A stretch of 64,000 nucleotides of DNA, from assembly GCF_026109735.1 (NCBI RefSeq), contig NZ_CP069620.1, forward strand, positions 992,001 to 1,056,000, in the 5' to 3' direction. Origin of the DNA: Salinimicrobium tongyeongense. Its GTDB lineage: Bacteria > Bacteroidota > Bacteroidia > Flavobacteriales > Flavobacteriaceae. The notes beneath the pieces are model-generated. The model was not told the origin of the DNA. It ran no database searches and was given only the letters and a program-made list of their open reading frames with translations. Shown one piece after another: positions 58,428 through 64,000 of the stretch; the first letter of the stretch is position 1, and every line of letters begins with the position of its first letter. Position numbers and translations under genes: made by a program.

Positions 58428-59510
58428 CTATTGTTTCATGATCTTTTCCTGGTGATTGATAGATTCCTGGTGCACGGCTTTGAACAAACGCAGGATGAAT
58501 TCTTCGCTTAGCCCGTGCTGCTCGCCTTCCAGAACCATTTTCCCCAGAATTTCGTTCCATCTTTTGGTTTGAAGCACAGAAACGTTCTGAGATTTTTTCA
58601 CCCTCCCAATTTCGTCGGAAATTTTCATCCTTTTTGACAGCAATTCAATCAATTGGTTATCGGTCACATCAATTTGTGCCCTTAAATTGTGCAGTTTATT
58701 CTGAAATTCTTCACTTTCAGAAACTTCTTTCCGAATTTTGAGGTCTTTCATGATCTGCACCAAAGTGGCAGGTGTGATTTGCTGTTTTGCGTCACTCCAG
58801 GCGTTATCGGGGTCAAAATGCGTCTCCACGATGAGTCCGTCATAATTAAGGTCAAGCGCGGTTTGGCAAAGGTCAAAAATGATGTCCCTTCTTCCGGCAA
58901 TATGCGACGGGTCGAGGATTAGCGGCAAATCAGGGAACTTATTCTGCAGTTCAATGGCAATCTGCCACTCAGGGTTATTTCGGTATTTGGTCTTTTCATA
59001 GGCAGAGAATCCGCGGTGAATCACACCCAGGTTCTTGATATCGCAGGAGTAGAACCTTTCAACTGCACCCAACCACAGGGACAAATCGGGGTTTACGGGG
59101 TTTTTCACCAGCACCACCTTGTCGGTTCCCTTAAGGGCATCGGCAATATCCTGAACAATAAAAGGGGAAACCGTAGTACGGGCACCAATCCACAGGATAT
59201 CAATATCATGCTCAAGCGCAAGATCTACGTGATGCGGGCTCGCCACTTCGGTAGTGGTAAGCATCCCGGTTTCCTGTTTTGCCTTTTGCAGCCATTTTAG
59301 CCCCAGAGCACCAACGCCTTCAAAATTACCCGGGCGGGTACGGGGTTTCCAGATTCCCGCTCTTAAAACGGTAGCATCGGTATCTTTTAGCTGGTGCGCA
59401 ATTTTAAGCACCTGCTCTTCGGTTTCGGCACTACATGGCCCCGCAATTACCAGAGGATGTTCCAATCCAAAATTGTCTAGCCAGGTTCTGAGTTCTTTCT
59501 TGTTTTCCAT
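58428..59510 (-). CDS. DAHP synthase fused to chorismate mutase
   Basis: A 360-aa bifunctional enzyme. The N-terminal part (about 1-262) is a type I-beta 3-deoxy-D-arabino-heptulosonate 7-phosphate synthase (VIAGPCSAETEEQV, RAGIWKPRTRPGNFEGVG, VKNPVNPD, LPLILDPSHIAGRRD), condensing PEP and erythrose 4-phosphate. The C-terminal part (about 270-350) is an AroQ-fold chorismate mutase (LRAQIDVTDNQLIELLSKRMKISDEIGRVKK, in order). Bacillus has the same fusion in the opposite order. Last gene of the attenuator-controlled aromatic operon, 7 nt after tyrA. It provides both pathway entry and the branch-point step. Confidence 0.95.
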   Translation of the reverse strand: MENKKELRTWLDNFGLEHPLVIAGPCSAETEEQVLKIAHQLKDTDATVLRAGIWKPRTRPGNFEGVGALGLKWLQKAKQETGMLTTTEVASPHHVDLALEHDIDILWIGARTTVSPFIVQDIADALKGTDKVVLVKNPVNPDLSLWLGAVERFYSCDIKNLGVIHRGFSAYEKTKYRNNPEWQIAIELQNKFPDLPLILDPSHIAGRRDIIFDLCQTALDLNYDGLIVETHFDPDNAWSDAKQQITPATLVQIMKDLKIRKEVSESEEFQNKLHNLRAQIDVTDNQLIELLSKRMKISDEIGRVKKSQNVSVLQTKRWNEILGKMVLEGEQHGLSEEFILRLFKAVHQESINHQEKIMKQ

Positions 59511-59517
59511 TAGTTAA

Positions 59518-60366
59518 TCAGTTTATTCCGTTCAAAATTGTTTTTATGTGGTTTGTCTTTTCCATCTCTCTGAAAACCTCCTGAAAATTGTCATTTTTGA
59601 GAAGATCCCTGAATTCTGAAAGATTATTGATGTACTCTTCGAGGGTCTCGAGAATATTGTTCTTATTTTGCTGAAATATTGGCGTCCACATGGCGGGTGA
59701 ACTTTTTGCCAGCCGCACCGTAGAAGCAAATCCACTGCCTGCCAGGTCAAAAATGTCTTTTTCGTTCTGCTCTTTCTGAAGCACTGTTTTTCCCAACATA
59801 AAAGAACTGATGTGAGAAAGGTGAGAGACATAGGCGATGTGCCTGTCATGCGACGCAGGATCCATGTACCTGATGCGCATTCCCAACTTCTGAAAGATCT
59901 CCAGCGCCCTTTCCTGAAGTTTAAAAGCAGTTTTCTCTACCTCACAAATGATGTTGGTCTTGGCTTGAAAAAGGTTTTCTATTGCTGCTTCGGGGCCAGA
60001 GAATTCGGTTCCGGCAATGGGGTGTGCGGCAAGGAAATTCCTTCTATTGGGATGTGCCGCTATTGCTTCACACAAACCTGCCTTGGTCGAACCAGCATCA
60101 AAAATAAGCGTATTGGGACCCACCGCATCCAAAACCTCAAGAGCCACTTTTCGGGCAGCGTCAACCGGCACCGCAATAATTAATACTTCTGCCTCTCTAG
60201 CTTTTTCTAAAGTAGCCGGGCCGTCAATAAGTTTAAGCTCCTGGGCCTTTAACAGGTGCGCCTCACTGGCGTCACTGCCCGTGACCGCCACTCCCGGAAA
60301 AGCCTTTTTAAGCCCCAGTGCAAACGAGCCACCAATTAAACCTAAACCTATAATATGAACTTTCAT
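59518..60366 (-). CDS. tyrA: Prephenate dehydrogenase
   Basis: A 282-aa NAD-dependent enzyme converting prephenate to 4-hydroxyphenylpyruvate for tyrosine. The Rossmann motif GLGLIGGS (6-13), DAGSTKAG, HPIAGTEFSG and the substrate motif SHDRHIAYVSHLSH (with the key His) are intact. It is of the short cyclohexadienyl/prephenate dehydrogenase type without an ACT domain. Overlaps the aminotransferase stop by 4 nt (ATGA, 60363-60366). Confidence 0.95.
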   Translation of the reverse strand: MKVHIIGLGLIGGSFALGLKKAFPGVAVTGSDASEAHLLKAQELKLIDGPATLEKAREAEVLIIAVPVDAARKVALEVLDAVGPNTLIFDAGSTKAGLCEAIAAHPNRRNFLAAHPIAGTEFSGPEAAIENLFQAKTNIICEVEKTAFKLQERALEIFQKLGMRIRYMDPASHDRHIAYVSHLSHISSFMLGKTVLQKEQNEKDIFDLAGSGFASTVRLAKSSPAMWTPIFQQNKNNILETLEEYINNLSEFRDLLKNDNFQEVFREMEKTNHIKTILNGIN

Positions 60367-61511
60367 GCCGTTAATCTATTACAGGCTTTTATAATATTTT
60401 CTTCCGAAGCGCATAAAGAAAACCGGATATAGCCTTCTCCCTGACTTCCAAAAATGAATCCGGGGGCTGCGAAGATGTGGTATTTCTTCAGCAGATGTTC
60501 TACAAATCCTTCTGAAGTATTTCCCTGCGGGACTTTGCACCACAGGAACATCCCGGCCTGATCTTCAGAAAAACTGCATTTTAAAGCTGTAGCAAGTTTT
60601 ACGATTTCTTCCTTTCTCCGCTGGTAGATCTTATTCTGCTCGCTGAACCATTCCGGGGAAAGCCGCAGTGCCATTGCCGCTCCTGCCTGCAGGGGAAAGA
60701 ACATGCCACTGTCCATATTCGTTTTTACTTTGAGTACCGTGTTGATATGTTTTTCACTGCCGCACAACATCCCGATGCGCCAGCCCGACATATTGAAGCT
60801 CTTGCTTAGGGAATTTAGCTCGAGTACTCCATCCATGTCCTCACAATACTTAAGGATACTTTGAGGTTCTTCATTGAGGATAAAGCTGTAGGGGTTATCG
60901 TTCACAACAAGTATGCTGTGCTTTTTTCCAAACCTGTAGAGTTGCTCAAAAAGCTCTTTTTTAGCTACTGCCCCGGTGGGCATGTTAGGATAATTTACCC
61001 ACATCAGTTTTACCTTGCTCAAATCCCTTTTTTCAAGCTCTTCAAAATCGGGCAACCAGCCGGTTTCTTCATTGAGGTTATACAGAACTGTGCTCGCTCC
61101 AACAAGCCGGCTAACCGAAGCATAGGTAGGATAGCCCGGGTTTGGCACCAGCACCTCATCCCCTTCATTTAAAAACGCCATGGAAATATGGGTAATACCC
61201 TCTTTGCTCCCCATTAAAGGAAGGATCTCAGTTTCATGGTCAAGGGCCACACTATAGAAATTCTGGTAGAACTCTGCTATGGCTTTCCTGAAATCATTGG
61301 TTCCCCGGTACGGCTGGTACTGGTGCGCCGACGGATTGAGCAGCGCCTGGTGCAGAGCCGTCATCACCTGCGGTGGCGGTTGTAGATCTGGGCTTCCCAC
61401 TCCCAGATTTATAATGGGTTTCCCCGAATCCTGTAACGCCCTTACTTCCTTCAGTTTTGTTGAGAAGTAGTATTCTTCAACGTGGTTTAGTCGACTGGCC
61501 TGTGCGATCAT
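60363..61511 (-). CDS. Class I/II aminotransferase of the aromatic operon
   Basis: A 382-aa PLP-dependent fold type I aminotransferase. Motifs are NLGVGSPDLQPP at the N-terminus, YQPYRGTNDFRKAI, the NYPNMPTGAV segment (N-x-P-x-P), NDNPYSF and the PLP lysine Lys237 in SLSKSFNMSGWRIG. From its place between pheA and tyrA it probably transaminates phenylpyruvate and 4-hydroxyphenylpyruvate, or prephenate; annotation as an aspartate-type enzyme is also common. Its ATG overlaps the pheA stop (ATGA). Confidence 0.93.
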   Translation of the reverse strand: MIAQASRLNHVEEYYFSTKLKEVRALQDSGKPIINLGVGSPDLQPPPQVMTALHQALLNPSAHQYQPYRGTNDFRKAIAEFYQNFYSVALDHETEILPLMGSKEGITHISMAFLNEGDEVLVPNPGYPTYASVSRLVGASTVLYNLNEETGWLPDFEELEKRDLSKVKLMWVNYPNMPTGAVAKKELFEQLYRFGKKHSILVVNDNPYSFILNEEPQSILKYCEDMDGVLELNSLSKSFNMSGWRIGMLCGSEKHINTVLKVKTNMDSGMFFPLQAGAAMALRLSPEWFSEQNKIYQRRKEEIVKLATALKCSFSEDQAGMFLWCKVPQGNTSEGFVEHLLKKYHIFAAPGFIFGSQGEGYIRFSLCASEENIIKACNRLTA

Positions 61512-62335
61512 AATAAGCCGTTTTTATAGATTCCTAACACCTTTAATTCTTCGGTTAATTCCGAAAGTATGTTTAATACTTTTTGTAATTCTTCTTCGTC
61601 CTGGAAAAGCACATCGATAAAGAATGCGTATTTCCAGGGCACATCAATCACCGGCACACTCTGAATTTTGGTCATGTCTAGATCAAAATCCCTCAATATA
61701 TTGAGCACGCTTACCAGGCTTCCTCTTTTGTTTTCCAGGACAAATTTTAATGAAGCCTTATTTGCGCCGGTAACCACGGGAGCTGCGTTCTTTGACGAAA
61801 GCACCAGAAAACGGGTAGAGTTGCTTTTCATGGTTTGTATGCCTTCCTTTAAAATTTCAAGGTCATAGATATTTGCAGCGGCTTTACTGGCCACAGCTGC
61901 AACTCCCGTTAGATTTTGCTCTCTAATTCTCTTGGCCACCTCGGCTGTATCGGTATCTTCAATAAGCTCCATGTGGGGGTGGTCTTTAAAGAAGGTCTGG
62001 CATTGCAGGAGGGCCATTGGGTGAGAACACACTTTTTTAATATCGGTGATCTTCTGCCCAGGCAGCACCATGAGGTTCATAAAAATAGGAATGTAATGCT
62101 CACCCTTAATTTGTAGATTATTATCATCAATAAGGGCGTAATTGGGGAGAATGGTACCCGCAGTAGAATTCTCTATCGCCATGACTGCGCTTACAGAACG
62201 GTTGGTCAATAAGCTGTCAACAACTTCCCTAAACGATTGGCATTCGTCTACCGGAACTTCCTTTCCAAAATATTCCCGTGCAACCTGGTGGTGAAATGAT
62301 CCTTTTATTCCCTGTATGGCTATTTTTTCCTGCAT
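61508..62335 (-). CDS. pheA: Prephenate dehydratase
   Basis: A 275-aa enzyme converting prephenate to phenylpyruvate. The catalytic domain (1-180) has GIKGSFHHQVAREYFG, AIENSTAGTI and the TRF motif (174-176, NSTRFLVLS). The ACT domain (about 195-270) starts LKFVLENKRGSLVSVLNIL; its usual Phe-binding ESRP is QSVP (225-228), so feedback inhibition may differ. There is no chorismate mutase domain; that activity is on the fused aroF product. First structural gene of the operon, starting 12 nt after the leader terminator. Confidence 0.95.
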   Translation of the reverse strand: MQEKIAIQGIKGSFHHQVAREYFGKEVPVDECQSFREVVDSLLTNRSVSAVMAIENSTAGTILPNYALIDDNNLQIKGEHYIPIFMNLMVLPGQKITDIKKVCSHPMALLQCQTFFKDHPHMELIEDTDTAEVAKRIREQNLTGVAAVASKAAANIYDLEILKEGIQTMKSNSTRFLVLSSKNAAPVVTGANKASLKFVLENKRGSLVSVLNILRDFDLDMTKIQSVPVIDVPWKYAFFIDVLFQDEEELQKVLNILSELTEELKVLGIYKNGLL

Positions 62336-62353
62336 ATACTTTTTGGCAAAAAA

Positions 62354-62379
62354 AAATCCCGATGCTTACATCGGGATTT
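62354..62379 (-). terminator. Attenuator terminator of the aromatic operon
   Basis: On the minus strand AAATCCCGATG (62379-62369) pairs perfectly with CATCGGGATTT (62364-62354), 4-nt loop TAAG, with an uninterrupted run of T extending to 62348. It sits between the leader reading frame and the pheA ATG (62335). The 7-nt UCCCGAU of its 5' arm (62376-62370) is complementary to AUCGGGA in leader codons 21-23 (62416-62410), giving a competing antiterminator. Confidence 0.85.
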
Positions 62380-62398
62380 CAGTTATAATATTGGTTAA

Positions 62399-62476
62399 TT
62401 ATACGGCACTCCCGATCTTATCTCTGAAATAGAAATAAAAGTAATACCAGGCGTTCCAGATAAATAAATTGTTCAT
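62399..62476 (-). CDS. Aromatic-rich leader peptide of the pheA operon
   Basis: A 25-codon frame ATG (62476-62474) to TAA (62401-62399), residues MNNLFIWNAW then YYFYFYF, then RDKIGSAV. Ten residues are aromatic, eight of them consecutive (WYYFYFYF, 10-17). Length, position between a promoter and a terminator, and composition match leader peptides of attenuated amino acid operons. Stalling at residues 10-17 would leave codons 21-23 free to form the antiterminator; fast translation to the stop would cover them and allow termination. Too short for routine gene calling. Confidence 0.85.
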   Translation of the reverse strand: MNNLFIWNAWYYFYFYFRDKIGSAV

Positions 62477-62494
62477 TTTTCTCTTTGTGAAAAG

Positions 62495-62523
62495 CTAATG
62501 TAGCATATATTTTCAAAAAACAA
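62495..62523 (-). promoter_or_regulatory. Promoter of the aromatic operon leader
   Basis: On the minus strand TTG (62523-62521), an 18-nt spacer and TACATTAG (62502-62495), close to the Bacteroidetes TTTG/TAnnTTTG pattern. The predicted start (about 62488) leaves a 5' leader of about 12 nt before the leader-peptide ATG. Confidence 0.5.
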
Positions 62524-62639: not shown

Positions 62640-63539
62640 ATGTCAATACTGGTAAACAAGGTCTCTAAGTACTACGGAGAACAAAAAGCCCTCGATGAAG
62701 TTTCCTTTTCCATCCAAAAAGGGGAAATTGTGGGGTTCTTAGGCCCCAATGGCGCAGGAAAGTCTACACTTATGAAGATCCTTACCGGTTATTTACAACC
62801 TTCTTCGGGAGAAGCCACTGTAAACGGCTTTGCCCTTGAAGAAGATTTGCTGCAGGCACAAAAAAGCACCGGATACCTCCCCGAGCACAACTCCCTTTAT
62901 ACCGAAATGTATGTGCGGGAATACCTGGAGTTTAACGCCCTTATATATAAGGTACCAAAAAGCCGTATTGAAGAGGTTATTCTCCAAACCGGACTTCTAC
63001 CCGAAGCCAATAAAAAGATCGAGCAGCTCTCTAAAGGTTACCGGCAGAGAGTAGGCCTGGCTAATGCACTTCTGCACAACCCCGATGTGCTCATCCTCGA
63101 TGAACCCACCACAGGCCTCGATCCCAACCAGCTGGTAGAGATCAGGGAATTGATCAAAACAATTGGAAAGGAAAAAACCATCTTTCTCTCCACCCACATT
63201 ATGCGGGAAGTAGAAGCTTTGTGTGAGCGGGTGATCATCATCAACCACGGAAAAATTGTTGCCGATAAAAGGTTGGAGGAGCTGCGCGATGAGCAGATGC
63301 AGATCATTGAAGTGGAGTTTGATTACCGAATTGAAGAAGTTGCCCTCAATCGCCTGCCTCACCTTATGGACCTCAGGAACACCGGCGGATTCGTTTATGA
63401 ACTCTATTTTGACACTGAAAAAGACATGCGCCCTACCGTTTTTGATTTTGCACATGACAATGGATTGAAGACCTTACAGCTCAACCGGAAGAATAAGAAC
63501 CTGGAGAATTTATTTTCAGAGCTAACGCTGAAGAAGTAG
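62640..63539 (+). CDS. gldA: Gliding motility ABC transporter ATPase GldA
   Basis: A 299-aa cytoplasmic ABC ATPase. Walker A GPNGAGKST (35-43), Q-loop region, signature LSKGYRQRVGLANAL, Walker B VLILDEPTTGLD and the H-loop STH are intact; the C-terminal extension (VEFDYRIEEVALNRL...) resembles GldA. The start SILVNKVSKYYGEQKALDEVSF is close to the known Flavobacterium GldA. It would work with the membrane proteins GldF and GldG, not encoded in this window. A generic ABC-2 exporter ATPase is the alternative. Followed by a strong terminator. Confidence 0.88.
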   Translation: MSILVNKVSKYYGEQKALDEVSFSIQKGEIVGFLGPNGAGKSTLMKILTGYLQPSSGEATVNGFALEEDLLQAQKSTGYLPEHNSLYTEMYVREYLEFNALIYKVPKSRIEEVILQTGLLPEANKKIEQLSKGYRQRVGLANALLHNPDVLILDEPTTGLDPNQLVEIRELIKTIGKEKTIFLSTHIMREVEALCERVIIINHGKIVADKRLEELRDEQMQIIEVEFDYRIEEVALNRLPHLMDLRNTGGFVYELYFDTEKDMRPTVFDFAHDNGLKTLQLNRKNKNLENLFSELTLKK

Positions 63540-63540
63540 G

Positions 63541-64000
63541 GTTTTTCTACCCGACCTGCAAGGTTTTGAAAACCTTGCAGGTCTATATTTTTTGATCAAC
63601 CTAAAGGTAAAAAAGACCTGGCAGACCGATGATATTACGAAACGATCTGCAAATTCCTGCCATTTCGGAATTTAGAATTGGGCTAAAGCCCTGGGTGAAG
63701 ATCCTCTTTATTATCCCCGACTTAAAAGTCGGGGCAATTAATTTCTGTGGAATTTTAAATAACAACCAAAACCTACAAGGTCAGAAAAAGACCCTGCAGG
63801 TTTGATGATAACCCGGCACGGATTTCAAATCCGCGCCAACTAATCAAAACCGCAACAAGGAGAAACGGAAACAGATAACGCGGATCTGTGATCCGTGCTG
63901 ATTTCCAGCAACTAAACCTAACAGGTTTTAGAAACCTGTTAGGTTTGAATACGAAAACCTTCAAACAATTTCAAGTATTTGTCGCGGATTGTAAATCTGC
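63541..64000. repeat. Cluster of palindromic dispersed repeats
   Basis: At least eight short inverted repeats and no credible gene. There are three of the AACCT(G/A)CAAGGTT type (63553-63583, 63769-63802, 63914-63946), GGGCTAAAGCCC (63680-63691), CCCCGACTT/AAGTCGGGG (63715-63734), and three GCGGATT..AATCCGYGC palindromes (63817-63838, 63879-63900, 63982-64000, the last cut by the window end). Such arrays are widespread in Bacteroidetes and often lie near REP-associated tyrosine transposases. Confidence 0.7.
63553..63583 (+). terminator. Terminator after gldA
   Basis: A perfect 15-bp palindrome, GACCTGCAAGGTTTT (63553-63567) with its complement at 63569-63583, followed by TATATTTTTT. It lies 13 nt after the gldA stop and also belongs to the AACCTGCAAGGTT repeat family. 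Confidence 0.8.

Follow-up and report, generated by a model that had tools for sequence, protein, structure and literature searches.

The question raised by this locus is how transcription of the pheA operon of Salinimicrobium tongyeongense is controlled, and whether a short aromatic reading frame upstream of pheA takes part in that control. We analysed a stretch of 64,000 nucleotides, referred to as the window, together with the corresponding regions of related genomes. Our data point to a ribosome-mediated transcription attenuator of a Phe/Tyr operon, a reading to which, from sequence and modelled folds, we assign a probability of about 0.9.

Leader and operon in S. tongyeongense

A leader with a promoter, an aromatic ORF, a terminator and a complementary heptamer lies before pheA (Table 1). 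The initial annotation had described a TTG-N18 promoter, a 25-codon frame containing WYYFYFYF, an 11-bp terminator followed by nine U and the heptamer AUCGGGA, and each of these parts was found as described. The leader is flanked by pheA (ATG at 62335) and by a gldA-like ABC gene transcribed divergently (ATG at 62640; TIGR03522 above cut-off), and the terminator therefore serves no preceding gene. Beyond the gldA-like gene, short and partly palindromic repeats (AACCTTGCAGGT, AACCTGTTAGGTT and similar ones) were seen by eye at 63540-63960 of the window.

The leader ORF carries an additional Trp codon at codon 7 (62456-62458). The terminator stem consists of 11 perfect pairs, or 12 counting one G-U pair, closed by a TAAG loop, and the fold of the leader strand has a z value of -4.47 against 200 shuffles. 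The upstream promoter element is -33-like (for the -33 consensus of Bacteroidota, see PMC7366714). A TAnnTTnG box within 60 nt upstream of the leader ATG was present at 183 of 217 loci (duplicates included), compared with a shuffled mean of 13%, and the commonest distance between this box and the ATG is 18 nt, the same as in S. tongyeongense. The four operon genes that follow are close-packed on one strand.

Table 1. Features of the pheA leader and operon (window coordinates).
Feature	Position	Strand	Basis or remark
-33-like element, TTG	62521-62523	minus	Read directly; 18 bases to -7 box
-7 box TACATTAG, Bacteroidota TAnnTTTG type	62495-62502	minus	Read directly; 18 bases to leader ATG
Leader ORF MNNLFIWNAWYYFYFYFRDKIGSAV, 25 codons	62399-62476	minus	ATG at 62476, stop 62401-62399
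Regulatory codons 10-17, WYYFYFYF	62426-62449	minus	
Region 1, GGAACGCCUGGU, predicted partner of region 2 in untranslated RNA	62446-62457	minus	Minimum-energy fold
Region 2, AUCGGGA, putative antiterminator strand, codons 21-23	62410-62416	minus	Complementary to terminator 5' arm
Antiterminator inner helix, last codon and stop (GUAUAAU) with AUUAUA just 5' of terminator	62384-62404	minus	Predicted stalled-state fold, this window
Region 3, terminator 5' arm AAAUCCCGAUG	62369-62379	minus	Covaries with regions 2 and 4
Region 4, terminator 3' arm	62354-62364	minus	Runs into nine-U run 62348-62356
pheA, prephenate dehydratase	61508-62335	minus	PF00800, 4.7e-56
Class I/II aminotransferase	60363-61511	minus	PF00155, 7e-63; 4-base overlap with pheA
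tyrA, prephenate dehydrogenase	59518-60366	minus	NF006307, 379.5 bits, cut-off 295
DAHP synthase/chorismate mutase fusion	58428-59510	minus	PF00793 and PF01817

These parts suggest the following model. Transcription would start about 5-7 bases past the -7 box, and the short leader would be translated while it emerges. A shortage of charged tRNA-Phe or tRNA-Tyr would make the ribosome stall in WYYFYFYF and break the pairing between regions 1 and 2, which would free AUCGGGA. The free heptamer could then pair with the terminator 5' arm, allowing read-through into pheA, the aminotransferase gene, tyrA and the DAHP synthase/chorismate mutase gene. When the amino acids are abundant, the ribosome is expected to reach the stop codon and mask AUCGGGA, so that the terminator forms. 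An untranslated leader would also end in termination, with the 1:2 pairing sequestering AUCGGGA. We infer stalling, translation-transcription coupling and read-through in the cell from parts, conservation, covariation and folds that were computed.

Conservation in Flavobacteriaceae and beyond

Upstream stretches of pheA were obtained from 12 of 12 genomes in the genus sample. The family sample gave a PheA match in 277 of 299 genomes, and 147 of these 277 were looked at. From the best 150 family places listed, 30 were used as loci, three of them from Salinimicrobium, and another 80 were taken by place, and 30 further family genomes with weaker PheA matches were added to offset the bias towards best matches. 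Also sampled were 34 of 35 named contigs (L110, L127 and L128 without a family name) and 20 family loci; L132 was left out, as its contig carries only the end of pheA. The family count comprised 203 stretches, which corresponds to 192 places after removal of 11 duplicates, and a leader was counted when at least five aromatics fell within nine codons and a terminator was present. One of the duplicates is the pair L131 and L092, a single contig fetched with a shift of three bases; collapsing identical sequences instead led to the same totals.

An aromatic leader with a terminator was found before pheA at 190 of the 192 Flavobacteriaceae places; with the covariation of both helices described below, this is the conservation of aromatic codons and arms by which the initial annotation had proposed to check itself. 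Counted by genus, for the stretches with a genus name, 113 of 114 genera carry leader and terminator (147 of 149 stretches). Two of the 190 places have a GTG-start leader (L125 and L161), the leader of L046 and L140 lies farther than 450 bases upstream, and the leader is missing before pheA at two of the 192 places (L093 and L166).

Outside the family but within the order, 59 genomes matched and 23 were fetched, nine of which have leader and terminator (seven of them at six aromatics in nine codons). Leader and terminator together were found in 0/10 stretches of one other family of the order, with PheA identities mostly close to 30%, in 0/3 stretches from 0.6-Mb genomes and in 0/1 other. Among the remaining orders of the class, PheA matched in 49 of 197 genomes and 48 stretches were fetched: 25, from 12 families and 20 genera, carry a six-in-nine leader with a terminator, 15 are without a leader and eight are incomplete. 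Four loci outside the order (L258, L262, L264 and L273) show very dense aromatic leaders before pheA, with up to 9/9 codons aromatic. At another four (L231, L271, L272 and L276) a dense aromatic leader precedes pheA and the scan returned no terminator.

The expectation by chance was estimated for the family stretches, with the test counting an aromatic ORF with a terminator at most 60 nt from its stop. In the first family set (n = 153, 11 duplicates included), six aromatics in nine codons were found in 147/153 stretches versus 0/153 reverse complements and 0/765 dinucleotide shuffles; at five in nine, the counts were 148/153 versus 1/153 and 0/765. The low-similarity set gave 28/30 at five in nine, versus 0/30 reverse complements and 1/150 shuffles. 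Within the window, two of 41 long ORFs have an aromatic ORF upstream at five in nine, and one of them, pheA, also has the terminator.

Competing helices and predicted switching

We aligned 54 leaders taken from 102 of ordinary length and distinct peptide. After the outer two columns of the antiterminator were found to be unpaired in most relatives, the seven pairs of this window were cut to a five-pair core, only five of the seven being general. The core is paired in 92.6% of cells, compared with at most 55.9% when slid, and 23 cells are changed on both sides versus 7.3 in shuffled alignments. For the terminator, 96.4% of cells are paired, with 38 double-side changes versus 9.9 shuffled. At the middle core position, the antiterminator changes from G-C to A-U in 16 sequences and the terminator from C-G to U-A or U-G in 19.

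The pairing of region 2 with the terminator arm of its own locus has a mean energy of -11.5 kcal/mol, compared with -8.7 kcal/mol for foreign arms. Own-arm pairing beats the foreign mean in 128/137 loci and 95% of shuffles in 129/137, and the pairing of regions 1 and 2 outperforms 95% of shuffles in 122/137 distinct loci. A median of 23% of foreign terminator arms match region 2 as well as the own arm does, because many loci have the same core.

Our fold models used a ribosome front edge about 15 bases downstream of the P site. With the modelled ribosome at the first or middle aromatic codon, 179 of the 188 family loci are predicted to form the antiterminator in the nascent RNA (178 when it stands on the last aromatic codon), leaving nine of the 188 stalled folds without it; once the ribosome has moved to the stop codon, the prediction is the terminator in 188/188. 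With duplicates kept, the same models gave the antiterminator in 190/199 and the terminator in 199/199. For the full-length RNA, however, the fold of lowest energy often contains the terminator even though a ribosome is stalled: with the ribosome at the first aromatic codon this applies to 165 of 188 loci, at the middle one to 153 and at the last one to 151. The S. tongyeongense locus is among those where the terminator is the minimum-energy state of the full RNA despite a stalled ribosome. Therefore, the switch at such loci would have to be kinetic, with the outcome set by the helix that forms first. An outcome set by the first-forming helix is usual for switches of this kind. Taken together, an ORF with codons for the product of the operon, a terminator and an antiterminator mutually exclusive with it were identified by sequence and prediction, which would place the element in the functional class of ribosome-mediated transcription attenuators.

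Signal, alternative readings and known systems

Charged tRNA-Phe and tRNA-Tyr are most likely the sensed signal, judging from the codons of the leaders. Attenuation of the Phe/Tyr operon, the central proposal of the initial annotation, holds up well, with frame, codons and pairings conserved. Its further proposal, that the leader senses the whole aromatic pool, is likely for Phe and Tyr, which are both present in 201/201 distinct leaders sampled across family, order and class, and is weaker for Trp, which is present in 146 of the 201, absent from 55 and served by a separate leader before trpE. Trp may nevertheless contribute to sensing within the genus Salinimicrobium, where all 12 distinct leaders contain it.

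Two other leaders were observed in the same genome. One precedes trpE (PF04715), with peptide MNLINKNNWWWKHLRHSS, a WWW run and a terminator (L255, 2032-2143, minus strand), and matches Bacteroid-trp (RF01692) at 52.9 bits. The other precedes hisG, with peptide MKAKQLHHHHSHSFALAR, an HHHHSH run and a terminator about 27 nt past the stop (L257, about 1336-1392; C1 near 3117500); a scan of this locus gave no Rfam match at gathering score, and a hisG element in Flavobacteriaceae is named in PMC9723704. Each of the trpE, hisG and pheA leaders has codons for the amino acid that its operon makes, an argument in favour of codon-specific sensing.

This bears on the idea of an arrest peptide, in which the nascent aromatic peptide would sense the free amino acid and stall the ribosome as TnaC does, instead of the ribosome stalling for want of charged tRNA. 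The aromatic block is indeed kept in kind across genera, but Phe and Tyr interchange within it and its length and spacing differ between genera. Moreover, the codons that follow the block are pairing partners of the terminator arm, which would be an alternative reason for their conservation, and the Trp and His leaders obey the same codon logic. Counts of the individual pairs between these codons and the arm were set aside, since the duplex program had picked the partners and the counts are biased towards pairing. We consider an arrest peptide very improbable. A similarly slight chance is left for an incidental ORF in front of a constitutive 5' UTR terminator, a riboswitch, a T-box or a protein-bound attenuator. 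In favour of this are the strong terminator immediately before pheA and the pyrimidine-rich RNA required by the 1:2 pairing, which would itself encode some Phe and Tyr. However, the aromatics are specific to the frame: in 183 distinct family leader ORFs, the best nine-codon window holds 7.4 aromatics when read in frame, whereas the two shifted frames give 2.3 and 3.0 and a shuffled ORF gives 2.6, and 175 of the 183 reach p <= 0.01. For these counts, each frame chose its own best window and the ORFs were preselected for aromatics, and shuffling through the full procedure, as above, is the cleaner control. In addition, ORF, stop and terminator come in a constant order, with the stem 11-51 nt past the stop, all 148 of 148 leaders with an ATG start in the first family set (duplicates included) have a terminator after the stop, and the Rfam scan of the whole window returned no family at gathering score. 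Least probable of all is that the ORF encodes a functional hydrophobic small protein. Its presence and hydrophobic core are conserved, yet length and residue order vary, three leaders (L018, L019 and L077) end just past the block, and the leader has no Pfam match at E <= 0.001. Attenuation by a translating ribosome thus remains the preferred reading. Codon changes in a similar-looking leader of Streptomyces ilvB were without effect (PMC1262725), and therefore leader anatomy falls short of proof.

The enterobacterial pheA leader is Phe-based. In contrast, the leader described here mixes Phe and Tyr, and its operon adds tyrA and DAHP synthase. It shares leader-peptide attenuation of pheA with the proteobacterial Phe_leader (RF01859), of which it is not a member by score (18.3 bits, gathering score 55). 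With Bacteroid-trp it has a leader peptide and a terminator in Bacteroidota in common but differs in codons (Trp) and operon (trp), and the pheA leader has 23 Rfam matches at E <= 10, with RF01692 not among them. A covariance model built for the pheA leader scored this locus at 100.9 bits (its own sequence being in the model) and gave 24 further matches in the genome up to E = 10, of which L288, the best at 35.5 bits, L289 and L290 were fetched. L288 was rejected as a second copy, being a hairpin between two opposite-strand genes with no aromatic leader ORF.

The initial annotation knew of no flavobacterial case. Attenuation in Bacteroidota and the flavobacterial pheA element are, however, already known: Bacteroid-trp, which is in Rfam (RF01692), was listed by Weinberg and others in 2010 (PMC2864571), and a structured 5' element before pheA of Flavobacterium psychrophilum, without an Rfam match and present in other genera, was named in 2021 in a paper that also reports hints of leader-peptide attenuation upstream of amino-acid operons (PMC9723704). 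That element shares gene and family with ours; the passages of PMC9723704 that were consulted give no leader peptide sequence, antiterminator, covariation or range for it. A map of Bacteroides thetaiotaomicron reports small, leader-peptide-like ORFs in long 5' UTRs (PMC7366714). Naville and Gautheret (2010) stated that, to their knowledge, leader-peptide systems had been demonstrated only in Proteobacteria and Actinobacteria before their Firmicutes case, and their main text has no word beginning with "bacteroid" (PMC2965389). Our literature search, which left most subscription journals outside, found no other paper on a Bacteroidota pheA leader. The present analysis supplies the structured element known before flavobacterial pheA with a probable mechanism and, in Phe and Tyr, a likely signal, finds it almost everywhere in the family sample and also in further orders of the class, and provides an alignment and a covariance model for an element outside Rfam coverage here. 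Moreover, the Phe/Tyr, Trp and His leaders of one genome offer a three-way natural assay of translation-transcription coupling in Bacteroidota.

The operon itself varies. The genes for pheA, the aminotransferase and tyrA lie together on one strand in 31 of the 35 named loci, and the DAHP synthase/chorismate mutase gene is also present in 29 of those 31, the contigs of the remaining two being short. In Salinimicrobium sediminis, S. catena and two Flavobacteriaceae MAGs, this gene directly follows pheA. At loci L108, L130, L134 and L135, the pheA operon is without aminotransferase and tyrA. We searched ten genomes for TyrA and aromatic amino-acid hydroxylase, eight of them picked for the operon in which the fusion gene follows pheA. 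None of these eight has a TyrA match at E <= 1e-5, a threshold that a strongly divergent TyrA would escape, and PF00351, the hydroxylase family, matches in 10/10. Tyr codons are kept in the leaders of operons without tyrA, which would fit Tyr being made from Phe there. Tentatively, and at clearly less than even odds, we propose that the Phe and Tyr attenuator is ancestral or widespread in Bacteroidia, works in bacteria with start sites devoid of Shine-Dalgarno sequences and keeps its Tyr codons where TyrA was lost, Tyr probably then coming from Phe via a hydroxylase. The Tyr share of Phe and Tyr codons is 0.41 in the 94 distinct leaders where the aminotransferase is the next gene and 0.34 in the 27 where the fusion gene is (Mann-Whitney p = 0.017, uncorrected for kinship).
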